Source of the DNA: Lophium mytilinum | Lineage: Eukaryota; Ascomycota; Dothideomycetes; Mytilinidiales; Mytilinidiaceae | DNA length: 64,000 bases | Assembly (NCBI GenBank): GCA_010093605.1 | Contig: MU004195.1 | Location: 1,569,736 to 1,633,735 of the forward strand | Reading direction: 5' to 3' | In this document: positions 4,789-64,000 of the stretch, piece after piece | How the letters are laid out: each line of letters begins with the position of its first letter | Numbering within the stretch: the stretch's first letter is position 1 | The notes under the pieces: model-generated | Told to the model about the DNA's origin: nothing | What the model saw: only the letters and a program-made list of their open reading frames with translations | Database searches by the model: none | Position numbers and translations under genes: made by a program

Positions 4789-5631
4789 ATGCGGTTTACG
4801 CTGCCTGCGGCCTCCCTCATCGCACTCGTCGCTGAGGCGGTTGCAAACACCGAGAAGGTCATATTCACAGCTCCCAGCGCTATCACTATCCCCAACATCC
4901 GCCCCGGGCTGGATGACCTCAACCTAGACACCTTGTCGCCCGCTGGCCTGCGCACGCTGGAAACCAGTTTGGCCGTGCAATTCCCCTCCGACACAGCCCC
5001 GCGCGGGGTGCAATCGTGGTACCTTCTCAAAGACCTGGAACCTGGACGACGCTACGAAGTGAGGGTTTGCTGGCCAGCAACTGTAAGCTACACGCGTCTT
5101 TCTATCTAGCTGTCGTGGTGGACGCGCCGTTTGCCCGCCAGCCTTTGTTTGTCCGACCAGAGCCTTCGCTAACATCCTCAAGCAACCGACTGATTTCTGG
5201 CTCGACGTCCACAACCTCACCCACGTCTTCGAGACGCCTCTCCTCATATCCTCCCTCGCCGATTACTCCGAAAACCGGCAACCTATTGACCTGCAAGGCC
5301 CCGGACGCGCTCAAGGTGAAGCTACGTCCCATTCAGTCTTGTTGCTGCACATACATTCCGCTGCCGACTACTTCACTTCGAACCGCACGTTGATGGAACA
5401 CCCGCCAGCCGTCGACGTGGACCTTAGTACGTCCCCGAATTCTCTGGAACCCGGGCCGTGATTGCTAATTGCTCAGTTCTTGATCCATTCCTCTTGAATA
5501 TCCTTCCACAATCGCTCGGCCCCACCGCCCTCTACATCACCGTTCTTGCAGTCGGAAGCTTCTTCCTCTCCGGTGCCATCTACACCTGGCTCTACCAGAT
5601 CGCGGAAATACCTAAACCTCACACCGACTGA
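4789..5631 (+). CDS. PGA1: PGA1-like ER membrane protein (GPI-mannosyltransferase II co-activator family)
   Basis: Probable PGA1 homologue. In yeast Pga1 partners the GPI-mannosyltransferase Gpi18, which adds the second mannose of the GPI anchor in the ER. Three exons, 4789-5082, 5183-5426 and 5477-5631, encode 230 aa. An N-terminal signal peptide covers about residues 1-19. The luminal part holds the conserved stretch around RYEVRVCWPATQPTDFWLD, split by intron 1, and an N-glycosylation motif NRT. One membrane helix follows near the C-terminus after LDPFLLNILPQSLGPTALY. Phase is kept at both introns, and the exon 2/3 junction restores VDLILDPF. An in-frame ATG at 4777 is possible, but the signal peptide fits 4789 better. 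Family assignment is from recall of fungal homologues, not a search; the architecture is certain, the name less so. Confidence 0.72.
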
Positions 5632-5725
5632 GTGCATGCCTATGCGATTGCATCTCGGGTCTCCCCTCGCCTTCGCGAAAGGCCTTCTCGACTCGATATT
5701 CACTCGCCATCCACCGTCTCCGGCC

Positions 5726-6160
5726 ATGGCAACATCATCTACAGCACCGCCCAAACTCTCCGCCTTGTTCAATTTGCCCCCAGAGATCTTCCTCCTCATC
5801 CTGTCATACCTGCGCCCAGGCGACTTGCTCAAATTCGCCTTGACTACATACCCCCAGTTGCAAGTTAAACTCAATCTAGGATATCTGTCCATTCGCACGT
5901 TCCACCGGCTGGTACTCCCGCCGCCAAACATTGCTCTCAACTGGCCTTTGCCAATGGAGCTAACAGATCAGATTCTCGGCTACCTTCTTGATCCAAGCGA
6001 CGTTATCGCCTTTTGCTTCACTCACCGGGCCGTGTACCTTCAGTACATGGGCAACGAGACTCTGGACCGGGAAACAGTCGCGGGGCTGTGCAGTGTGACA
6101 AGACTTCCTGTCGATGGTGGGTTGCGGGCTTTGAGGAATTGGACGTCAGGAGGCAGATGA
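5726..6160 (+). CDS. Small F-box protein with two F-box-like motifs
   Basis: Uninterrupted 144-aa frame. Residues 13-45 match an F-box (LFNLPPEIFLLILSYL followed by a DLLKFA helix). Residues 73-103 repeat the pattern (WPLPMELTDQILGYL then DVIAF), so there may be two short F-box-like units. F-box proteins recruit substrates to SCF ubiquitin ligases through Skp1. No substrate-binding domain (WD40, LRR) follows, so the partner is unknown. An earlier in-frame ATG at 5636 lies only 5 bases after the previous gene's stop, so 5726 is preferred. A spliced 3' extension beyond 6160 cannot be excluded. Confidence 0.6.
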   Translation: MATSSTAPPKLSALFNLPPEIFLLILSYLRPGDLLKFALTTYPQLQVKLNLGYLSIRTFHRLVLPPPNIALNWPLPMELTDQILGYLLDPSDVIAFCFTHRAVYLQYMGNETLDRETVAGLCSVTRLPVDGGLRALRNWTSGGR

Positions 6161-7335: not shown

Positions 7336-9477
7336 TCAGCAGAGAAAGAATCGTTTTCGAGGCAATTTTGCCCTGTCCCACAGGTATCCGGCAAACGCGG
7401 TGCGCCCAACACGGTAGGATGTTCCATCTGGGTGAGTGTGCAACAGAAGTAGAATGACTTCATCGCCTATCGAATCAGGTCTCCCGGAGCGTGCAATGCG
7501 CACAAACTCAACCACGTCAGGGTACTCTGTTCCTGGGGCGCTGACTACGTCAATGGTCCAAGCAAAACCCATGTCATCCCGATCAGGCCCTGGCCACTGA
7601 GCCTTGTATGTTAGTGACAGGCTATGTCTAGTAATGGGTAATGAGATGCTTTCGGCTTCAACAAGCAGCATGTTTTCGATCTTTGGAATCCAAGCGGGAG
7701 GTGCATCGATCTCGAGTTCTAGGTCGCTAACACTCATCAGCGCTTGAGCAGCTTCCGGTTTCGACGGGGGGATGGCTTGGAATGTCAAAGCTCCAGATGG
7801 AGACCGTTTGCTGAGCCTGTACCAAAGCACCATTTGATGTGTCTCTTCCAAAAGGGGAAATGGGGATGCAAGTTTGAGCCCCCACGCGGCCCAACTCCAG
7901 CTAGGGAATTCAGGGTTAGGGTTCTGGCTAACTGTGGTAAATCCAATTGCGCAATCGAAGTACTGAAGTGGAAGTCCAGCGAAGAAAGTCAGCCCCCAGG
8001 TCGTGTTCAGATCGTTCAGGATCCCTGAAAAAGCTCTCAAAGTATCAGAGTCGTGGGTAATTCTTCGACCTCGGTATTGTCGCATAAGTTGGCGGAATGT
8101 GTCATATGCACTATTCGTTGCGCCCAACTCCATATAGTTACGACCCCATTCTACTTCACCCATCGTATCAGGGACACGCCATGGCGGCAAATGCTCGAGA
8201 TGCATGCTTTCGCATCTACCGCTTCCTGCTCTGCAATCGTAGGCAATTTCGTCTTTGGTGAAGATCAAAACTCGTTTCGACAGCACCATTTCTTGTAGTG
8301 TCCAGCCGCGAGTGATCCACCGACTCCGTGACAAATGATTTTTAGATGAGGTCTTCTTGTTGCCGAGGAGCATGCCCTCGACATTTGCAAGATGTTGTCT
8401 TCTTACTCTAGTTCCTTCTCGCACGCCTGGTAGTCCAGCCCAAGAGTCTTCTCCGGCTCCTGCGATTATCGTCAAATGAGCACCTTTGTAGATTTCGCCC
8501 ATGAAGTCGAACTGCCCGTAGTCGTGCCCGCTATCGTCCTGATCTAGGCATAGGGCATCAGCCCAGAGATAAGATATCCCTAGTAGTTGGCACAGCTGCA
8601 TGGCGTCCTTCAAAGTTGTGGGTATGTCAATGTGCAAATCTGCAAGGCCACCTGGCTCCATCAACCGAGATCTCACACCCCCTTCGAGAGTGTTCCTCAG
8701 CTGTGGCACTTCCGGGCTGCCCCACACGTACGATAAGGCGGCATAGTCCGTTGTAGTTCCTTCACCTCCTTGGAGAGCGGGCACCACTTTCCTCGAATTG
8801 ACGTCGATCATAAAGATCGGACAATTGGGTTTCGGGACGATAGGGTCCGGGGCACATATGCCAGAGCAACTCGTTTTGCATAAATCCAACCACTGCTTGA
8901 TGAGCGCGATATCGACTACAGGTGGAATCTCTCTAGGCTTATAATCTGGCGTTTGTTGAGGGTAATCCTTTTCATCACATGGATATCTCCGAATGTATAT
9001 CGTTTGCCTTCGTAGTGATGATCTGTGCATGAGCGACACCCGTAGCGTTCCTGTATCGGCGGGTCTCCATGCCTTGGGGCTCGGATGGAACGCGGAATCT
9101 TCCTCGTATCTTAGGTCCTTCCACTCTAAAGATGAGTCGCTTAGGGATTCTAACTTATTTGCGCTCGGAAGTCCCAGCTCCTGCGATAAAAGGGTCTTAA
9201 CGAGTAAGCACAAGGGACAAACGACTTCGGATAACAGATCAGCGAGTTTCCTTTTGTGTTTTATCTTCTTCCTTGCCCCTTTTTCTTTTAGAGGGGAATT
9301 CTGTGGCCAGTTTTGGAGCCAAATCATATGCAACTGTTTGCACCAGTCACAACTTTGTTGTGGATCATATGGATTAGGTGGGCTGTGAAAGGGAGTACGC
9401 TCCCTCACGGGTACTCTTTCTCCGTCGTCAATAGTAGCGGGCGGTGTCGTCAATTTCCTGGCGTCGTTTGAGGCCAT
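7336..9477 (-). CDS. HET-domain protein
   Basis: Single-exon 713-aa protein with a heterokaryon-incompatibility (HET, PF06985) domain at about residues 244-400. It has the three usual blocks: YAALSYVWG (about 245-253), YLWADALCLDQDD (about 303-315) and RGWTLQEMVLSKRV. HET domains act in fungal allorecognition and can trigger cell death when joined to or activated by partner proteins; the domain alone does not show that this copy is active. The N-terminus has two CxxC pairs (residues 43-46 and 87-90) spaced by a basic stretch, common ahead of fungal HET domains and possibly metal-binding. The C-terminal 300 residues have no recognised domain. It is transcribed away from the DUF2235-GTPase gene across a 973-bp gap. 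No frameshift or stop is seen. Confidence 0.92.
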   Translation of the reverse strand: MASNDARKLTTPPATIDDGERVPVRERTPFHSPPNPYDPQQSCDWCKQLHMIWLQNWPQNSPLKEKGARKKIKHKRKLADLLSEVVCPLCLLVKTLLSQELGLPSANKLESLSDSSLEWKDLRYEEDSAFHPSPKAWRPADTGTLRVSLMHRSSLRRQTIYIRRYPCDEKDYPQQTPDYKPREIPPVVDIALIKQWLDLCKTSCSGICAPDPIVPKPNCPIFMIDVNSRKVVPALQGGEGTTTDYAALSYVWGSPEVPQLRNTLEGGVRSRLMEPGGLADLHIDIPTTLKDAMQLCQLLGISYLWADALCLDQDDSGHDYGQFDFMGEIYKGAHLTIIAGAGEDSWAGLPGVREGTRVRRQHLANVEGMLLGNKKTSSKNHLSRSRWITRGWTLQEMVLSKRVLIFTKDEIAYDCRAGSGRCESMHLEHLPPWRVPDTMGEVEWGRNYMELGATNSAYDTFRQLMRQYRGRRITHDSDTLRAFSGILNDLNTTWGLTFFAGLPLQYFDCAIGFTTVSQNPNPEFPSWSWAAWGLKLASPFPLLEETHQMVLWYRLSKRSPSGALTFQAIPPSKPEAAQALMSVSDLELEIDAPPAWIPKIENMLLVEAESISLPITRHSLSLTYKAQWPGPDRDDMGFAWTIDVVSAPGTEYPDVVEFVRIARSGRPDSIGDEVILLLLHTHPDGTSYRVGRTAFAGYLWDRAKLPRKRFFLC

Positions 9478-10450: not shown

Positions 10451-13400
10451 ATGATGGGCTCCGAGGCATTGAACACAATCGCGAACGCGACTCCCGCAGC
10501 CGCAAGCGGACACCACCCCAACGCGATGTTACTACCCACTCGATTGATCGTTGGTGTTGATGGCACATCATGCACTCCAGATGGTCCACATGGCCGGCAT
10601 TTCAGCAACATCAGTAATGTATATCGGATTTGCGCGAGCGCCAAGGAAGGCATGTCCGTCGATAGTGACAACAGGTGGTTCGTCCAGAAGAAGAAGTACT
10701 TTCCTGGAATTGGGTCTGACGAGAAGATGCACCCGCTCTCACGTCTGACTGCTAATATCTCTGGTAAAGATTGCGTCATCCAAATCAGTGAAGTCTACGA
10801 ATATTGCTGTATACAAATGTTTTCCGGGCATCCAGAAAATGAGATTTGGTTCTACGGCTTTAGCCGAGGTGCATACGTCGTCCGAGCTGTTGCTGGCTTG
10901 TTGCACCATCTTAGGGCATTGATATCTGCTGGAACTCCGGCCTTCAAGTCAGACTTTGTTGGTGGATTGAGGAGGTATAAAGACCTCCGAAGAAGATCAT
11001 CCCAAGGAGCTGGTCAGATTCATGAATACCTCGCTGAAAAGACTCGACCGGCTCCGATAATCCGGTTTATCGGAGTCTTCGATACGGTCAAGGCCGTCAA
11101 CGACCATTCGCTATACGATATCAGCTTCAACGACTCTATTCAGCACTTCCGTCAGGCGCTTGCCCTTAACGAGGACAGAAAGGATTTCTCTCCTGAGTGT
11201 CTCTTTCCCGAACTCAATAGAGCCTTACCATATGAACGCAGCTTGGTACAAGCCTGGTCAGCTCACTAAGTCTGTTCTATCTCAAAGAGCCTTCTTAACA
11301 TCTTCTAGGTTTCTTGGTGCCCATCTTGATATCGGAGGGTCCGCGGCTAAGGATGGGCTATCACTTTACCCTCTGCAATGGATGTTGCTTGAGAGTACAG
11401 CTAAAGGCCTAGAACTGCATTTTGACGGAACTTTCGGTGGCCGGGCTCCTATCGACGACCCTATCACTGTTGTGTTCCCGCAAGACGATGCTGACGGAAA
11501 GGGTAAAGACATGTGGTCATGCGCCGCCGACAACGGCGTTGGAGTTGATATTCAGGACCTCCGAAAAGTTCACGAGCTGCCAAAGTATGGCAAACGCTAT
11601 TCTATTCATCTCAACCGCGACAACGCCATTTTCTGGATCAGGAACTCGCGGCAAGTGTTTGCTTTGAGTGGGGAACTACGAGGTTACTGTTCATTCGGTA
11701 CGTCACGTGGATTTCGATTGTGTCTTGATGGCTACTCTGCTAATTACACAGATAGCTTCTCAAGGTACCATCTTACATCCTTCAATCTACATGATCCTTG
11801 ATACTTTCCCCCACATGCTCATGGATAGCGATACCTTCACTCGTGAGGACTGGCAAAATATCTACCATTGGAAGACGCACATCCTTGCTCTTGAATGGCA
11901 ATGCGAGTTCTGGGACGACCGTCAAACTACGAAATTCGAACAGCCGGGATCCATCCGCATCCTCGTCTGTGGGAACACCGGCGTAGGAAAGTCGTCGTTG
12001 ATCAACGCCGTCTTTGGAGCAGAAGTGGTGAGAGATGGCATATCTCAATCCAAGAATAAAAAGACGCTAAGTGAAAGCAGACCACCGCTACGGACAGAAC
12101 TCGGGGGAGTCATAACGTCGAGGATGCCTTGACGAACCCCAATCGGCCTGACTTGCTTATCCACGATTCAGGAGGGTTTGAAGCTGGCGGTACGAAAGAT
12201 CTCGAGACCATAGAGAAGTTTGTCAAAGAACGCTCAAATCACATCGAGATCTATGATCGCCTTCATGTCATTTGGTTCGTCTTTGAACGCCCTGAAGCTT
12301 TCCCGGACTAATCGATAGTATGTAGGTTCTGTCTAGATCTTGGTACTGTCCGTACTAGACAGACAGCGACTATCGAGCTCTTTGAGACTGTATCGAGGGT
12401 TGCAAAAGATGTACCCATCGTTGTTGTAGCGACGAAAAAGGACGTTTTCTTGAATGAGCAAGCAGGAAAAAAGTGGCGCGAGCTGAAGAAGAGTGGGGGA
12501 TCTCCCGCTGAAGTTGAAGTTTCCGCCATCATAGACGAATACGCCGAAGATCAATCTCGCGACCGCATGTTACTAATGGAGAGCGAGCTTCTATCAATCG
12601 AAGACGGAAGGTTTGATGAAATAGTCGGAGTACACAAAGGTAGGTCGCAATACAGAGCTCTTCGGAAAACTTGCTGATTGTTACGGCTGTAGGTGATCCA
12701 GAGTCTCTGCAAGCGCTCTCAGACGCCACGAGGAGGTGTTTTGATGATGATAAGCTCCGGATATCCTTCATCGCCGCTCAAACCATCAGTATGGATATGA
12801 AAGTGGACAAAGCCATCCTGGACGCGCTACAGATATACAAAAGAACCGTAACGCGAGCGATGCTCTCCGACCACGGCGCCGATCTCGTCACCAGCCATTC
12901 TTCCCCTAAATCTTCGTTGGCAGCTGAGGTATGCGCTGCGGTCGTTGCCTCTTTCGGTCTTCCTACGATCAGCGCATCAACCGTAGAGCATATCATTTGC
13001 TCCAAGCTTTGGAAAGCCACGAACGCCGGTCCCACATCAAGCTCTCTGGCCATCGCCGACGCAGTCTCGAAGGCATTCCTTACTACACTCTCTGTCTTCG
13101 ACCCTTGTTCAGCACCGGCAATCGTCATCAACGCCGTGCAAACAAATACGAAGCTCTTCTTAGCGCTTGTGTGCGACGTAATCCTAATTCTGGTCAAAGC
13201 GTTTAAAGAGAGCGCTGGTAGATGCGTAGGCCAGCCGCTTCAAATTGACATCAACAAAGCCGCGTTTTGGTATCGCGGAATCTCGGAGCAGGTTCACAAG
13301 AAGCTCAACGAGGTGATTCCAACCCGTATGTACATGAGCATGTACATGCATCGCAGTCTGAGAACCGGGCCTATTCGCCAGAAATTGCTGGAAGTAATTG

Positions 13401-13534
13401 CGGGATTCAGAATCACCATCCTTGAGGGGGAAACTCAGATTGTGAGCTTAGGAATCGATGATAATGAAGGAAGCTCTCAATCGAACAACGGGGAAGACAG
13501 AAACACTGAATGCGAAGGATTGTCCTATAGTTGA
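10451..13534 (+). CDS. DUF2235 hydrolase fused to a P-loop GTPase
   Basis: Six exons, 10451-11256, 11309-11697, 11756-12027, 12081-12274, 12326-12639 and 12693-13534, join in phase to 938 aa. All five introns are GT-AG and 51-58 nt long. Residues about 31-400 are a DUF2235 alpha/beta-hydrolase-like domain (Tle1 phospholipase-like): GVDGT near 35, nucleophile elbow GFSRG at 136-140, VFDT with candidate acid Asp211, and GAHLDIGG with candidate His274. Residues about 465-600 are a GTPase: G1 GNTGVGKS (471-478), G3 DSGG (518-521), G4 TKKD (590-593). The 3' third is helical and hydrophobic (LFLALVCDVILILV), perhaps membrane-associating. Every catalytic and nucleotide-binding motif seems intact. 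Each spliced junction restores a family motif, for example WFLGAH across intron 1. Residue 26 is a possible later start. The divergent HET neighbour hints at a defence or incompatibility role, which is inference. Confidence 0.88.
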
Positions 13535-13958
13535 ATGTTCGCCTGACTCCACAACTCTTCGGAGAGGTTATTGGTAATCATCCTTTCGTAGTCCGCGTAG
13601 ACAAAAGTGAGGTAGCCTAGCAAACTTTTACGTTGCCCAGATCGAAGTTACTTCCTCGCCATTGGATTTCCAAAAATGCGTCAAAGCACCCTTGACAGTG
13701 ACAAGAGCGTGTACAAAAATCAATGGCAGACTGTGGTGCGCGAAAAAGTAACGAAGACAACTATCAATATCTTGGAAGTGATCTCGAAAGAAAGTAAAAG
13801 AGTCTCATTTACACTTACTAGGCACTCCTAGAGAGATACTATCACCCAACATGCAACGCAATCCACTCGACCTGTCCTGAGGCCCCCTCAACTCGACAGT
13901 TTACAACCCACTCAAAACTCTATCTCCACTCCCATGCCTATCAACCTGACACCCCACA

Positions 13959-14143
13959 ACTTCTTCTCCTGGACCTGCTTCGCCGCCTACCTACTCAGGG
14001 CCTCTCCCACTCTACCTCATCTCTCTCTCTAACCCAATCATCCTACCTCTCGACACCATCGAACTTCTTCTCCTGGACCTGCTTCGCCGTCTACTTACTC
14101 CAAAGCCTCTCCCACTCTACCTCATCTCTTTCTACCCCAATCA
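13959..14143. repeat. Direct repeat, two ~81-bp copies 104 bp apart
   Basis: Copy 1 at 13959-14040 and copy 2 at 14063-14143 both start ACTTCTTCTCCTGGACCTGC, then share a C/T-rich body and a closing CCAATCA. They differ by scattered substitutions and a small indel. This is a local tandem duplication of non-coding DNA. Confidence 0.8.
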
Positions 14144-15091: not shown

Positions 15092-16705
15092 TCAGGCTCG
15101 CCAGATATTATGCGGCAGGCTCATATTGTACCCGGGATACATATCCAACAGCCGCGGCTCCACGCTATCCACCCCCTTGCAGTTCAGGTCCGTGAACAGC
15201 GGCGGCAGGCGCATCATCAGCGTCGGCCACACGTTATGCTCGTAGTCCACGTAGTACTCTCGGAGGTACTCTGGGCTGAGCAGCAGGCCGGCGATGAGGC
15301 CGAGGCAGACGAGGTTGTGGTCGTTGCGCAGCTCGGAGCGCTTGTAGGCTCCGTTGGTGAGGCTGTCGGCTTCGAGCACGGTGAAGGTGTTGACGCCGTT
15401 GACGTTGCCGCCCATGCTGTACTTGTCGATGAGGTCCGGGTGCTGCGAGGCTGCGGCGAGGAGGTCGTCGCTGGTGTGCAGGGCCGTGTAGGGGTCGCTG
15501 AGGGCGCGGCGGTACCACTCGACGGGGATTTGCTCCCAGCCGGGTTTCTGTGGGGGGGATGTTAGATGGAAGGGGCTGGGTGACAAGAGGTGAAGAGGTG
15601 AAGAGGTGTAGTGGATTAGAGCCGAGGCGTTGCCGACGAGGACAGTAGATAGATGAAGATCATATCCAGACAATAGGGAGGTTACTTACGTAGATCAAAT
15701 GTTCTCCGACGAACTCATGGCTCCGCTCGACGCCATAAAACGACATGAGTGTCTCGCGATCCAGTCTGCCCTCAGGATACTTGGCACTATGATTCGAGAA
15801 ACATTGCCAGACCAGGCCATGGCTAGCGCCGATATGCATCAAGCCGGCAAATGGCGAGATGAAGAAGTTCGGGTTCTGATTCTCGCTGTCGATAGTCCGC
15901 TGCATTCGGTGGTCGTTCATGATCGCAAGGTTGTAGTCGACCTGTTCATCTGGAAGCCCCTGCTGCCTGTAGTAAAGATCTTTGAACAGGTCGAGAGACA
16001 TGGTGGAAGCATCTCCGTTGTCTGCAATATATTTGTCGATCCGTGTTGCAGAACAGTCGTGTTCGAAGGCGGCATGGGTAGTGTCAAGGCCTCCAGGATT
16101 GACTAGCAGGATGACGCTGGAATTGGCTGGAGTAGAACCTAGTGGAGCCGGGCCGCCGATGGACATGTGGGAAAGATCTGTCGAGACTGACATTGCCGTG
16201 CCATAGATGGCAGCAAGGTGAGCCAGATCGTAGCCCAGGCCGAAGACTGAAAAGTTAGCCGGATGAAGAAGCAGATGACAGAGACGATCCCGGAGACCAG
16301 GCTAGATGCCAATCTGGTGCCGCTGCTGAGAGCGCGATAGTACAATCCCAACCCCCAAGAAGAGAGCGGTAGAAGCAGGCATTCACCTCCTTTACAAGTG
16401 AAACTTACCATTCATAGAAGCATTGACGATCTCGTCAATAGTAGCGATGCCGTTGTGCGGAATGAAGCCACTTGAAGTCATCAGCCACCGGCCACACTCC
16501 AAAACACCAAGATCAAGAGCACTTACTGGTTCGCCAACGCATTCAGAGCCGGGCAGGGCCCACGAAGATCGCCAACTCCCGGCGGCTGGAATTGATGCTT
16601 GCGGGTGACGTCGACAAGCTGCGCTCTGGCGTCAAACTCGACGGCAGAGGCCTGGCCCACGAACAGCTGGACGGCGGAGAAGACGCCGAGGGTGACGAGC
16701 TTCAT
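15092..16705 (-). CDS. Secreted heme-thiolate peroxidase (chloroperoxidase / peroxidase_2 family)
   Basis: Four exons, 16705-16527, 16470-16409, 16246-15690 and 15547-15092, join in phase to 417 aa. An N-terminal signal peptide covers about residues 1-21, so secretion is expected. The family signature is present: RGPCPALNALANHGFIPHNG, with the axial heme Cys in PCP (the His is rebuilt across intron 1), and the EHD motif in AFEHDC. These enzymes use hydrogen peroxide to oxygenate or halogenate organic substrates; which of these this one does cannot be read off. Length exceeds the classic ~370-aa chloroperoxidase. Intron 3 begins GTAAGTAACC and ends in a C-rich run before CAG. A TATATA sequence lies about 165 bases upstream (near 16870), a possible promoter element. 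No neighbouring gene is functionally linked. Confidence 0.92.
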
Positions 16706-17877
16706 GATGAAGGACGCCCTGGGGGAGGACTGTGCTTGAGCGCGATTGGCTTGACTTAGGAGGAGGTGCGATGAGATGGCGGTGGTTGTGTTGACGAGCG
16801 AGAGAGATGGAGGAGGTTGAGTTACAGGAGTTGATGTGGAGTTGAAGTGTACTAAGCGGAAATCTCGCTATATAAAGTGACAGCCACGCGATTTAAGCGA
16901 AGGTGATCCCACAAGTAAAACGTCACGGCAAATTTTGTGAAGTGAAAAAAGACACGCTGCCGTGACCACTTACCGCCCGTATCGTCAGAGACCTCTTCCT
17001 CCAGCGTAGCTCTGCGCTGTCGGCAACCGTGACTAGACTCACCGCCTTATCCTACGTAGGAGCTGAAATCGAGCCATTCACCAAGGCTTTTGAAGCTGGC
17101 TGGTCTCGTGGCCTCTTAAAGGACTCATCACGAGCAACGCCCGGCTTCGACCGTCGCAGCGCAGCACACCAAGGAGCGAATGTCCCGCATCTCACCCGCA
17201 TGTCAATAAATCACGAGCAAGGAAGCAGCGTCGTCATTTCCTCTTGTTCTTCCCGACCTCGCAGTCGTACTGGATCAGATGGCGTGGGACAACAGCTGCA
17301 GACGGAACCGTGATGTTTGTACCCTGGGTTACCTCCTACCTAGTTCTCGTGGGGGCTGGGAATATCCCGGCTCAGGGTCTAAGGACTCATTCTAGTTGTT
17401 GCAGCATTCTTCTTTGATGGAAGCAAAAGGTTCCGTGATGGAGTGTTGAGGGACAACTCTTCCGAGGTTTGGAGACAGGCGCCGCTAGATTCGATTTCGA
17501 CCAACTACATTACGCAGATGTGAGCTATATCCTGTGATAGAAGTATTTGTGTTGGACTTACGCTAGGGCGTGATGTGAAGCTCGGAAGCAAGTCGAGCCC
17601 ACCACCACGGTTCGAACGTACGTACCTGCATGTCGAAGGGCATATATAGATGAAGCTTTCCACACCCTTTGATCGACCCGAGACTCGTTCTCGTGCAACG
17701 GAGCACAGCAGGTATACACTAAGTAAGCGGGATCCAATATGACACAGCACAATCATCAAAAAGGACACGCCATGAGAAGAATGAATGCCCAATCCCATGC
17801 CCGTCTTGAAGACCACACCCACATTGACTAATACAGATATACCTAACCCTAACCAATCCAGATACTAACCGCATGTT
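16706..17877. other. Gene-free spacer
   Basis: Holds the promoter side of the peroxidase gene and the 3' side of SEY1. Short frames at 17029-17313 and 17505-17822 have no coding support. CCTAACCCTAACC at 17842-17854 is two telomere-like units, too short to call an interstitial telomere. Confidence 0.5.
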
Positions 17878-53551: not shown

Positions 53552-56500
53552 CTAGAGCGTCTGTTTTGCCGCTAACACTTTGGCGGGCATAACTTTCCGA
53601 GCGTGTTTCTTTGAGAAGAATTCTGGCATCGTTAGATATCGTTGTCGTTGAGAACCGAATGAAACTTGAGACTGAGAACGCTTACTGAATAGAGACAACG
53701 ATGCCCTTTTGCTCTTCGTCTTGTGGGATTCCTTGGCCGGGGATTGTCCATGCAGGATCGCGAACTCATTCAACTCCTCGAGAGCACCCGGTTTGATCTT
53801 GTGCTTAGGTGCATTTGCTACGTGATCTAGAATTGTCGAGCCTTCGAATATCTCGCCAAAATCTGCTCCGTTATCGAGGAGGAACCTCATCATGTCCAAT
53901 CCTCGAGCATATGAGATGTCTCTTTCAGAGAGGTACGGATACGGAAGCAACTTACGCAAATTGCTTGATGGCGCAGTGTTATATACATACGCAGCATCAA
54001 GAAGCAATGGGACCAAGCGATCGTCTCGGTCCATGGGGTTCCAGGACGGAAGTTTTGATTCCAGATACCAAACAAAACCAAATGCGACAACATAGTTGAG
54101 AAAGTCTCTCGGACGATGTTTGGGCCATCCATCCACAATCTGGTCTATATGTGTCCAATGTGGTCGTACTCCAAGATGTGTATCAGCTAAGGTAGTCATC
54201 ATAGACTTGCCATTTTTCGAGCTTTTGAAAGTCAAATAAACAAGGGTCGTATCGAGTTGATCCAGCGCTTTGATCCGGACATTCATGCTGGTATCACTCC
54301 GACATTCTGAGAGATGACGTACGAAACCTTTCATCAAAGCTTCTAGCTCTCCGATGTTGTCTGCTATATTGGTTTTCATCAACATAAGGTACGACAAGGT
54401 AAGCGACAGATTTGGATCGAAAGACTTGGGGGCCGTGTTCTTGATCTTTTCCCATGTATCTTCATCTTCAATGAAATCTTTCACAGTCCTATGGAGATAC
54501 TCAACCGTAGAAAAGGCCGAAAGGTGGCGTTTAGGGACCTCAAGTAAGCCCTTGCATCGGCTGTTTAAGCGACGTCGAAACCTATCGATTTTAGCTTCAA
54601 GCTTCTCGGGGTCCAACGGTGCTATCGTTGCTTCGAGAATAGCATCCGCATCTTCATCTGCAAATGCGAAGGTCAACACTTGTAAAGGTGATTGGATCTC
54701 GCCTGAGGACGCTCGAAATATTTGGAAGAGCTGAGACGCATGCTCCCTGTGCGCTGGTTCCTGGCTATCCAGAATCTTTTGGAAAAAGCCCTCAAGGTCA
54801 GGGGGGATTGACTCGAGCCGTTTCTCTAGGTCGTTCATATTGTCTCCGTTGCTGAGGCCGGCCAGGAGAAGGTCTACTACCAAGGATACCCAAAGAAAAA
54901 CACCGGAAGCTTTCTGGGCAATATCTTCCGTCAACTTTGTGGCGTACTCAGGATCTTCTGCTTTCAAAGCAAGATATCCCGCATTCTTGCCAAAGCTCGA
55001 AGTGATAAAATGTCTCATGTCCGGGAGAGTTAACTCATGTATGTGCAGACTTGGGCGCTTTGCAAACGCATCCTCGAACACAGGCCAGAGACGGCTGGAT
55101 ACACACATCTTGACTCTGCAATTTGGTAAGGTCAATAGCTTCTCCAGGAACACAATAAGTTGTTGCTTTTCGCCTTGATACTCGTCTAAACCGTCAATGA
55201 GGAAGAAAAATCGCTTCGATGGCCCGACTTGTTCGATCAAACGCAGGAATGCCCGGAGCAACTCAGTCCACGTGAGATCTTCATTTGGCGGTAAACCTAG
55301 GAGGCTGAAAGTTTCCCATCGGTCCGGAAATGCAGACGGCGCAATATCTTGACACTGGGCGACAATCTGGCGTAACAAGGACTGGACAAGCCCATGTTGG
55401 GACATTTCAACGGATGCGCCAGAATTCCAGAAGAAGAAACCGGCCCTCACAACTGGGATGCCATGGTCCATCGATTCGGAAAGCAGCCTATCCGTCCGCG
55501 GGTCGTCGTGGAGCAGCTTCATAAGCGTCGTTTTGCCCGCGCCGGCCTTTCCTGAGATCCAGTACAGTTGGGACCGGCTTTCAAGCCACTCGGAGAAGTT
55601 GTCCCATGTTGCGCCAATGCCCTCAGTGCCTTCAGGTGTATCTGTACGATAAATCCATTCGAACGTCTCTCGATACCGATCGCTGATTCGGTCATGTCGG
55701 TCTTGTCTCTCTTTATAGTCCAGACAACGGAGGATGTGTCGCGCGAACTCGTCAGCCTGCACTTGAAGTCCAAGCTCTCCGAGGTTGGACCGCGAGAATA
55801 TTGACGAGTCATAGTTGAGGTCATTTGTGTATTGCTCGCGAATAATCTGAATCAAGTCTTTACCCCACTGCCGATTTTCCTGGATATGGGCCTGGAGTGT
55901 CTTCAGCACTGATTCGAGGCGGCCGCCAACATCGGACCGTGAAGAGTACACCTCTTCTCTATCCAGCGTCAGCTCTAGAATAGTGTGTTCAATACTATAT
56001 CATAGGTCCAGGCACACTTTGGATTTTGGAAATGCGGCGGGGAGCCTGAGCTGTGGCGGACGAGTGTGACCGGACTTATGACTTGTGACTGTAGTCGTTC
56101 CATAGCTCAAAATACGCGTCGAAACATACCGTAATATTACCACAATGTTCAGCGTCAACTGTTGACGAAAGCCATCGATCCTTCGCTGTAGTTCCTCTAT
56201 GTGGTCTTCTTTCCACCTGCTTTTCAACGCTGATAGGCAACTTTGCCACCGCGTGCCTTCTTGTTCAAGCTGTATGGAGTCTAGCACTTGTATAAGCTCC
56301 GCTGCGACACGTTGTGCGTCTTGGCAAAGAGTTCGGAGGTCGTGAGATTGCTGAGAGGTTGAGTCGGTCGCTTGAAGCCGCTGGAGCTCCTGACTCTGGG
56401 CCGAGAGTGTCTGGGTGATGTGACGGAGATCATCATGTTCATCCGTTCGCCCATCAGTGGATCTGTAGAGCTTTCGGCTTCCCGAGATCAGTTTACTCGA

Positions 56501-56557
56501 GAATTCTACAAAGGTAACAACGCCAGTTGCCACGGCGAGCGCGGAGAAAGGCTCCAT
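53552..56557 (-). CDS. NACHT NTPase with fungal STAND N-terminal domain (NLR-like)
   Basis: Two exons, 56557-56130 and 55994-53552, join in phase to 956 aa. Residues 1-140 match the fungal STAND N-terminal domain (MEPFSALAVATGVVTFVEFS then an amphipathic helical bundle). The NACHT domain follows, with Walker A GKAGAGKT at about 291-298, Walker B FFFLIDGLDE at about 405-414, and a sensor-like CVSSRLWP. The middle is helical. Near the C-terminus one ankyrin-like unit is visible (MMRFLLDNGADF), but no repeat array. Such proteins are NLR-like receptors, and some control incompatibility and cell death in fungi. The ligand-sensing half here lacks the usual WD40, TPR or full ankyrin array, so its trigger is unknown. 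The intron acceptor (GATATAG) was chosen because only it keeps phase and gives a smooth helix. Confidence 0.88.
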
Positions 56558-57197
56558 GTACGTATGCGCAGACGAGCTTGTGAAGCGACTATAATCATGG
56601 ACGATAGAATGTAGAAAGTTGCGGAAGATATTTCAGCTAGCAAGGCTGATAATGAAGCGTAGCGGATCACGGAATTGAAGAATGCAAAGGTGCGCATCAA
56701 GAGATAGAAGAAAGCGGGGGGAGCCTAGGCGGCACAGCCCTCGCGACAAGGCTGAATTGCAGCCTTGGGACGAGGCTGAAGCAAGCAAGGTCTTGCGGCC
56801 TAATATGGATTAATTGAGTGACGCATCTGCAGCTCTTTCAGCTGCCCTCCTCTGGAAGTGCTGTAAAGAATACCGGTGTGCCCGGAAGTCGGGAAGGCTT
56901 GATAGTTGGGAATTGGGTAGGCGCTAGAACTATTCTATTCTAGTACTAGAGATAACAAAATCGTAAACATGTACTAGGGTGGAATAGTATGTATAATATA
57001 CTCTATTATTCTCTATTGAGTTTACGAGGTAATGCTTAACTAAAACAACATAGCCATCTTACCCACCTCCTGTCTCCACCACGGGCCTGAATGCATTGCT
57101 GAAAGTGCTCCATGCTTCCCGGACATACATTTCTCCATCAATATAGCTAGACAATCTCTCAAGTTGAAGTGTGGGTGCCGTGCGCGGAAATTTAGAG

Positions 57198-61995: not shown

Positions 61996-62975
61996 AAATG
62001 GACCCCGGAAAGAGAGGAGTTCTTGTGATAGATGTCGGCTTTTCTGCTCTAGACATGTGAGCATTGAAACGTGGCTTTTCGATCAATAGTGCCAGGTGGA
62101 GGTTAGTCTATATACCTAGATGACGGGGTCTGTATTCCTTTTCTCTTGTGGTTAGCAGAATTGACACCTTATTCATGACCACACAAAGAGATACGAGCAG
62201 AAAGCTAAAACAGAAAGAGATATATGTAGCCTCAAAATCTAAAGAAACTAAGAAACCATGAAGTAGTGAACATATTCTCATACTATGACAGGCGGTTTCG
62301 TGCATGTTGGCGACGAAAGGACTGACTCATGGCAATAGCCTAGGAGACAACGGTCGCATACAAGCTTTACTAGGCGAAGCTTGACTATCTACGAAGTATT
62401 GTAGATGGAGGAGGGAGGAGAAGATTTGTGACGTTTAATTAAAGTTGCGCTGGCGTCATACTTCCGGAGCTCCCGAAAGCACCGACTTTCTCAGCTCGAC
62501 TGTCGACAATAACATCACGACAATTTGCTGCTCATTTGTATTGAAAAATAGAAGAAACACAAGAGTAACCCCTAGCATACTTCCCATAGTCCAGGGCATC
62601 AATGTAACCGTCTATTTAGTGGTAAAACTCCGCAAAAAAGCCCTTCAGAAAAACACCCAACAAAATCTCAAAACCCAAAACCCATCAAACTTCCAGACTC
62701 TAGGGGAAATATGGGAATCAAACCGCCAAACCCGCCTTGACCGAAGCCAGTCCATTGACCCGCAACTCGGAGAGCGCCAGTACTCCATTTTCAGTCAATC
62801 ATCTACCCTGGTAGGAGACTCCAGACCAGTCGACAGCACCGAGCTACTCCACAGCCTCGTCGAGCATGGCGCACTTAACTCCATCACCGACACCATCGAC
62901 ATAGCTAGACGTATAGGAGACACCGACATCCTTGCCTCTCTCATCGATCCCCGCCTTATCGCCCAACGAGAACGC
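61996..62975. other. Spacer, possible 5' part of the last gene
   Basis: The frame of the right-edge F-box-like gene is open from 62439 but has no ATG before 62976. The translated stretch just upstream (about 62690-62975) looks protein-like, so an upstream exon with the true start may lie here. Confidence 0.4.
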
Positions 62976-64000
62976 ATGATAGCGTCTCTTCCCCCTGATC
63001 TCTGGAAACACATCCTCTCACACCTCGATTTCGTCTCTGCTGCCGCGCTCACCATCACGAGCAAGACCCTGATCTTGAAACTCGGCACATCCTCTCTGGT
63101 CGCTTTAAACGCCCCCCAAAATCGTACCTCCCGCCTCCGCTTCCTCCAGTACCTTGACCCTACTCTCCCGTTCCATCTCCTCTGCTTCCCCTGCGCAACC
63201 TACCATCTCCGCCTCAATCCAGGTCAAGAACGCTTAACAGCTGACTACACCTCCACCCCCGTTTTCATCTGCCCAAAAGTCCACGGCTCCGTCCTTCCCC
63301 GCACCCGCCTAACCCATGCCCGCGCCCTCCCCCTCGCATTCGTGCAACTCGCTCTCCGCGCCCACCGCTACGGCCCCACCTACGGCATCCTCACCACCTC
63401 CCTCTCTCGCCGCTGGAACTGTCCTCACAGCAATTGGCGCCACGCGACGCGCTACATGGTGCACCGCGACCATCTCTTGATGAGGGTAGTTTCGCAGTGC
63501 ATCGCGGAGCCAAAACTCACGCCCACAGGCGAGAGAATCCTTCTCTATTCCCGCGAGGAGTACGAGCCTTACTTCTCCGTCTGCGCGCACTGGCGCGATG
63601 GCGTGCTGATGGATGTGTGTAAATGCGCGCTCAGCCATATCCCAGAGCGGCCGAAAGCAGGGGTGCGGCAGGTCCTGGCTTCGGGACCGAAGGGAACAGC
63701 AACTGCGGCGTTGAGAGGGATGCAAGGTAATGCAGGGCAGGGAATGATGGTTAGGGGGTGTGGAGTGTGCGGGCCTATGCGGCGGTGCAAGGACTGTGCA
63801 AGCGAATATTTGGTTGAGGTGAAGATGGTGGAGGATGAGAAGGATAAGGTAGTGCGGTTTAAGCATGCGATTACGGTAACAAGGTGGGCGGATTTGGGGG
63901 ATGGGAGGGAGTTGGATGGAGGAGAATGGGGAGCGATGAACGGAGTGAAGATGCAAGAGGGGAAGGGGTATGATTCTTTTGGGGTCATTGGGGGGAGGGC
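62976..64000 (+). CDS. F-box-like protein, partial, runs off the right edge
   Basis: Open frame of 341 codons continuing past the window end, so the 3' end is missing. It begins MIASLPPDLWKHILSHLDFVSAAAL, an F-box-like start, and continues with blocks common in a fungal F-box-like family: RLRFLQYLDPTLPFHLLCFPC, THARALPLAFVQLALRAHRYG and a later CGVCGPMRRCKDCASEY with CxxC pairs. The first in-frame ATG is 62976, but coding-like sequence extends upstream, so the start may be in an unseen spliced exon. The third F-box-like gene in the 58-64 kb block after the 2EXR pair, though not clearly related to them. A list restricted to closed open reading frames would miss it. Confidence 0.65.
   Translation, partial: MIASLPPDLWKHILSHLDFVSAAALTITSKTLILKLGTSSLVALNAPQNRTSRLRFLQYLDPTLPFHLLCFPCATYHLRLNPGQERLTADYTSTPVFICPKVHGSVLPRTRLTHARALPLAFVQLALRAHRYGPTYGILTTSLSRRWNCPHSNWRHATRYMVHRDHLLMRVVSQCIAEPKLTPTGERILLYSREEYEPYFSVCAHWRDGVLMDVCKCALSHIPERPKAGVRQVLASGPKGTATAALRGMQGNAGQGMMVRGCGVCGPMRRCKDCASEYLVEVKMVEDEKDKVVRFKHAITVTRWADLGDGRELDGGEWGAMNGVKMQEGKGYDSFGVIGGR

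Follow-up and report, generated by a model that had tools for sequence, protein, structure and literature searches.

A spliced gene of Lophium mytilinum predicted to join a Tle1-like hydrolase to a P-loop GTPase domain

Analysis of a stretch of 64,000 nucleotides of the Lophium mytilinum genome, hereafter the window (contig 15, 1569736-1633735; genome of 43,183,309 bases in 24 contigs), indicates that one spliced reading frame unites a hydrolase with an intact predicted catalytic triad and a G domain with intact motifs, as judged from Pfam matches and frame scoring. The architecture is built from two known domain families and is undescribed as far as we found: none of the open-access papers that we retrieved reports the fusion, and database entries with the same architecture may exist.

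Gene model and protein domains

The gene (10451-13534, forward strand) is a predicted model, and a well-formed one, in which six exons join to an open frame of 938 codons plus the stop (coding sequence of 2817 bases). The coordinates, motifs and residue numbers given in the first-pass annotation were found to be correct. All five introns are GT-AG introns of 51-58 nt, and four of them contain a YTRAY-like site. Scored by a codon table that was derived from five other open reading frames of the window, the model frame ranked highest in each of the six exons and had no internal stops, and both alternative frames of every exon carry at least two stops each. The third-position GC content was 0.53 and 0.55 in the two halves of the fusion, compared with 0.51 in the neighbouring HET gene.

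Table 1. Positions of the exons and introns of the predicted fusion gene and of the adjacent HET gene in the window.
Feature	Position	Strand	Content
Exon 1	10451..11256	+	start codon; hydrolase including S138 and D211
Intron 1	11257..11308	+	52 nt
Exon 2	11309..11697	+	hydrolase including H274, and post-catalytic part
Intron 2	11698..11755	+	58 nt; second AG acceptor 4 bases upstream
Exon 3	11756..12027	+	linker with HPS motif, then P-loop (G1)
Intron 3	12028..12080	+	53 nt; without YTRAY site
Exon 4	12081..12274	+	G3 (DSGG)
Intron 4	12275..12325	+	51 nt
Exon 5	12326..12639	+	G4 (TKKD)
Intron 5	12640..12692	+	53 nt
Exon 6	12693..13534	+	end of G domain (AAQ at G5 place), C-terminal region with hydrophobic stretches, stop
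HET-domain gene	7336..9477	-	single frame, 713 aa; PF06985, E 4.5e-30

The first half of the protein matched PF09994 (residues 31-295; E 2e-45; 155.8 bits against a cut-off of 27), and its predicted catalytic triad is intact, with S138 in GFSRG, D211 in VFDTV and H274 in GAHLDIGG. A profile built from this domain and five pieces of paralogues from the same genome matched the PDB entries 4o5p (2.8e-7), 6sjl (7.6e-7) and 9j3f (4.3e-4), labelled by the tool 'Uncharacterized protein', 'Putative type VI secretion protein' and 'Tle1 phospholipase domain-containing protein', respectively. The GFSRG, FDTV and GxHSDxGG motifs, which are common to the Tle1 type VI lipase effectors and the fungal domain, line up in the two alignments printed, those with 4o5p and 6sjl. 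We take 4o5p to be P. aeruginosa Tle1 and 6sjl to be E. coli Tle1, whose triad would presumably consist of S197, D245 and H310, the motif residues counted along the printed 6sjl alignment. These results uphold the assignment of this half to the Tle1-like alpha/beta-hydrolases. Tle1 enzymes are described as phospholipases A1/A2 (PMC9860674), and the toxicity of P. aeruginosa Tle1 is reported to depend on its Ser-Asp-His triad (PMC13133936). The fusion differs from these effectors in being fungal and intron-bearing, and its G domain occupies the place that membrane-anchoring domains take in P. aeruginosa Tle1 (PMC13133936). A type VI effector would be expected in a bacterial host near VgrG or Tli genes; here the host genes are spliced, the genome measures 43 Mb, and the 25 window reads submitted to Pfam, a subset of the open reading frames of the window, had no match to a VgrG or Tli family.

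The second half matched PF01926 (MMR_HSR1) at residues 466-591, with E 1.5e-7 and a weak score of 32 bits against a cut-off of 21.9. The G1 (GNTGVGKS, 471-478), G3 (DSGG, 518-521) and G4 (TKKD, 590-593) motifs are all intact, which bears out the P-loop GTPase identified earlier. In the PDB, the G domain had 25 weak sequence matches, with E between 1.2e-4 and 0.78, among them Der, TrmE/MnmE, GIMAP7, OEP34/Toc34 and septin-3; identity to the relatives found was about 21-35%. It reached no cut-off in NCBIfam and stayed below those of the AIG1 (15.2 bits against 27) and Septin (16.9 against 26.2) profiles, so that membership in the AIG1/GIMAP or septin families was not supported. Among the NTPases of fungal NLRs, neither NACHT nor NB-ARC appeared in the Pfam listing, and nSTAND1 scored 14.1 bits against 27.1. 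No match was obtained in Rfam, and a PADLOC hit to mad3 (0.011), covering the P-loop region alone, was rejected. The residue after DSGG is Phe. A hydrophobic residue at this place is typical of GTPases that act as dimers or with partners, and this feature is the basis of the gating proposed below.

For the C-terminal region, the first-pass annotation had suggested a hydrophobic helical tail. One strong hydrophobic stretch was found, at residues 811-829 (mean 2.12 in the best 19-residue Kyte-Doolittle window), but the overall hydrophobicity is modest and the two further stretches, at 738-756 (1.67) and 786-804 (1.52), are weaker. Both a single membrane helix and a bundle that binds membrane are possible for the tail. 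No Pfam family rose above chance from residue 660 onward, a DUF697-like tail gave neither a Pfam match nor more than 0.1% in hhalign (one sequence against four rows), and repeat families of the type found at the C-terminus of NLRs were absent from the Pfam results for the whole protein and for exon 6 alone. An AlphaFold model of exon 6 alone (pLDDT 39) was discarded, its fold being meaningless.

Relatives and distribution of the two halves

The genome of L. mytilinum contains nine DUF2235 loci (15 matches), and none of the eight others was seen fused. We compared the hydrolase domain of the window with all eight and with 17 bacterial sequences in a tree of 26 rows, in which most bacterial rows had been chosen by likeness to the window domain and several of the fungal ones are strung exon pieces. 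The window domain fell in neither of the two groups formed by the other loci, one with six of them and one bacterial row (support 90/97) and one with two (100/99). Its placement beside a Polaromonas row was weakly supported (70/95), and its end branch measured 4.62 compared with a median of 0.96. With 13 of the 17 bacterial rows its score was higher than with any of the paralogues. The hydrolase may possibly have been acquired from bacteria independently of the other DUF2235 genes of this fungus, and its very long branch would fit fast evolution as well as loss of constraint. A 2012 survey placed DUF2235 nearest to lipases and dated its transfer to fungi before the ascomycete/basidiomycete split (PMC3482391). 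A stand-alone Hymenobacter protein scored highest against the window domain in phmmer (89.8 bits; tblastn identity 32.5%); such bacterial DUF2235 proteins, unlike the fusion, have no GTPase half.

The G domain aligns with four GTPases of bacterial plasmids, of the HSR1/DUF697 type, over 190 columns (hhalign 98.4%, E 9e-15). Conserved in all five, in addition to G1 and G3, are three residues of 'WFCLDLGTVR' (W, C and R). These plasmid proteins differ from the fusion in being stand-alone (368-391 residues) and in their C-terminal part, where DUF697 was detected with E below 1e-4 in three of the four, and above its cut-off in two; it was undetected in the fusion. One of them comes from a small Acinetobacter plasmid in which two adjacent genes (L054, 166-1966) are annotated as GTPases, the first of which resembles the fungal G domain.

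A second copy of the GTPase half was sought in the same genome, and only the query itself was returned at E <=10 in a first look at three candidates; the full protein matched, beyond itself, hydrolase pieces only. A genome-wide search with MMR_HSR1 gave 23 matches and is weak as a negative because it missed the intron-split G domain of the window itself. Outside the genome, viral contigs had no pattern match to the fusion, phages had no match, and none of the 10 stretches of genome contigs that fit a pattern was a relative. In plasmids, 160 records match either half and none covers 80% of the fusion protein, the coverage being at most 36% among the 20 matches listed. A scan of genome contigs with the hydrolase alignment found five bacterial loci, whose genomes all contain the hydrolase half; the GTPase half was detected in one of the five, on a different contig. 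Among 299 genomes of one bacterial phylum, scored for at most two candidates each so that the counts are lower bounds, at least 81 match (hydrolase half in at least 69, GTPase half in at least 13), one has both halves, 345 kb apart, and the fusion is absent from the matches. Bacterial relatives of both halves are found only separately in the collections searched.

Alternative explanations and proposed function

The Pfam domain matches span the exon junctions at residues 269, 489 and 554, and the junctions at 398, which joins the two halves, and at 658 lie outside every matched domain. Because junction 398 is not covered by a domain match, the evidence that links the halves comes from the open frame and from exon 3. 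The uncovered junction would suit a locus that yields a hydrolase on its own and, as a second product, a GTPase, whether from two genes or through splicing choices at intron 2, with the fusion minor or absent. Two AG acceptors lie 4 bases apart at this intron (11740-11762); use of the upstream one would yield a hydrolase of 414 residues that lacks the GTPase, retention of the intron leads to a stop ahead of the GTPase, and splicing here might select between fused and stand-alone hydrolase forms. We nevertheless regard two products as distinctly unlikely, since exons 2 and 3 both score best in the model frame, the spacing suits one gene with short introns, and exon 3 runs uninterrupted, in one open frame, from a post-catalytic HPS motif to the P-loop. 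This motif ('[IVLM]H.[ST][IV]..[RIML]') stands at the start of exon 3, 133 residues after GxHxD. The HPS-type pattern, which was picked after inspection of the data, recurs 98-125 residues after GxHxD in three of six tails of the paralogues and in none of 11 bacterial tails, two tails being too short to contain it; a profile built from the tails failed to recover it. The presence of the HPS motif and the P-loop within exon 3 favours a single protein. The very long branch of the hydrolase and the limited resemblance between the G domain and known families could also point to a decaying or inactive gene, with the fold retained and the enzyme or the switch non-working, but the triad, G1, G3, G4 and the full-length frame are intact and make decay very improbable.

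An active fusion could serve housekeeping or stress-related lipid remodelling, in which the G domain would direct an acyl hydrolase to a specific membrane and neither immunity nor cell death would be involved; we consider this reading possible but doubtful. It would suit the septin-, Toc34- and MnmE-like G domains among the matches. G domains of these kinds often serve assembly or placement. DUF2235 occurs in most fungal lineages according to the 2012 survey (PMC3482391), and listed HET genes stay at least 35 kb away from the eight other loci of this genome, which would also agree with such a role. Against it, the fusion is single-copy and its hydrolase strongly diverged, which is unusual for a housekeeping enzyme, and among solved structures those nearest to the hydrolase belong to type VI toxins.

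Our preferred reading, held tentatively and at somewhat less than even confidence, is that of a GTP-gated, membrane-targeted lipase whose likeliest use would be self-damage in cell death or defence. A single protein, which we infer to be intracellular, would carry a Tle1/DUF2235-type acyl hydrolase (a lipase or phospholipase A) under the control of an HSR1/septin-like G domain, and the C-terminal region would aid membrane binding. Nucleotide-driven dimerisation or recruitment of the G domain might then bring the hydrolase onto membrane lipid, and self-damage during regulated cell death or defence is suggested by analogy with fungal NLRs that have patatin or alpha/beta-hydrolase domains. Those with hydrolase effectors (patatin PLP-1, SesB-like) have the same design, with the hydrolase first, a P-loop NTPase in the centre and a further C-terminal region. 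The fusion differs in that its NTPase is a G domain, neither NACHT nor NB-ARC, and in giving no match to a repeat family. Alpha/beta-hydrolases are listed among the four largest effector families of fungal NLRs (PMC9815663), and the patatin domain of PLP-1 is reported to be required for allorecognition cell death (PMC10197012). DUF2235 was enriched among Armillaria genes raised under Trichoderma attack (PMC10269595), a lead that concerns other genes, and one Botrytis DUF2235 gene is described as down on angiosperms, with no immune link drawn (PMC7824268).

The interpretation offered by the first-pass annotation is only partly sustained: the triad-intact hydrolase and the motif-intact G domain do lie in one frame, but the HET link is weak and the bacterial relatives are unfused. 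Selection, which that annotation read from the preserved motifs, is a conjecture from one copy of the fusion, the single one reached in this genome and in the genome-contig, bacterial, plasmid, phage and viral collections. The unfused DUF2235 genes call for caution, and the immune reading is an attractive possibility. In the fungal cell-death literature that we consulted the receptors are described as STAND-type NLRs. It is conceivable, though unlikely, that the fusion represents an additional type of intracellular immune receptor in fungi, in which an HSR1/septin-type G domain replaces the STAND ATPase and gates a phospholipase related to type VI toxins, GTP-driven assembly on the membrane leading to self-killing; the hydrolase would in that case perhaps be of bacterial origin, acquired independently of the other DUF2235 genes in the genome. 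If a G-domain-gated lipase is true, toxin-type lipases would be placed under another kind of nucleotide switch, and DUF2235, widespread as it is in fungi, would gain a testable role.

Chromosomal surroundings

The first-pass annotation had described the divergent neighbour as a HET gene and linked it to the fusion. The neighbour is indeed a HET gene (Table 1), with 973 bp between the two, but the link is weak evidence because HET genes are very common in this genome: at least 152 HET matches were found, with 150 of 274 candidates scored. If they were evenly spread, a random point would lie within 2.5 kb of a HET match with a chance of 1.7% (152 matches) to 3.1% (274). The nearest listed HET match to the eight other DUF2235 loci is 35 to 998 kb away, none of them being within 35 kb. 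The adjacency is mildly unusual, was noticed post hoc and forms no pattern. Since the eight other DUF2235 genes are unfused and away from listed HET genes, DUF2235 alone is no marker of immune loci here.

We also detected other features in the window. An NLR-type gene lies about 40 kb from the fusion (53555-56632, reverse strand), with SesA in one frame and NPHP3_N/NACHT and DUF7791 in the adjoining frame. The right-hand neighbour of the fusion gene (16523-16708, reverse strand) gave a Peroxidase_2 match of 2.7e-9 in the piece tested and probably extends to about 15092. Just downstream of the fusion gene, at 13948-14133, there is an imperfect direct duplication with a spacing of 104-105 bases (49 nt at 88% and 29 nt at 97%). 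Additionally, F-box matches were found toward both ends of the window, at 5498-6157 and 62439-63998 (+).
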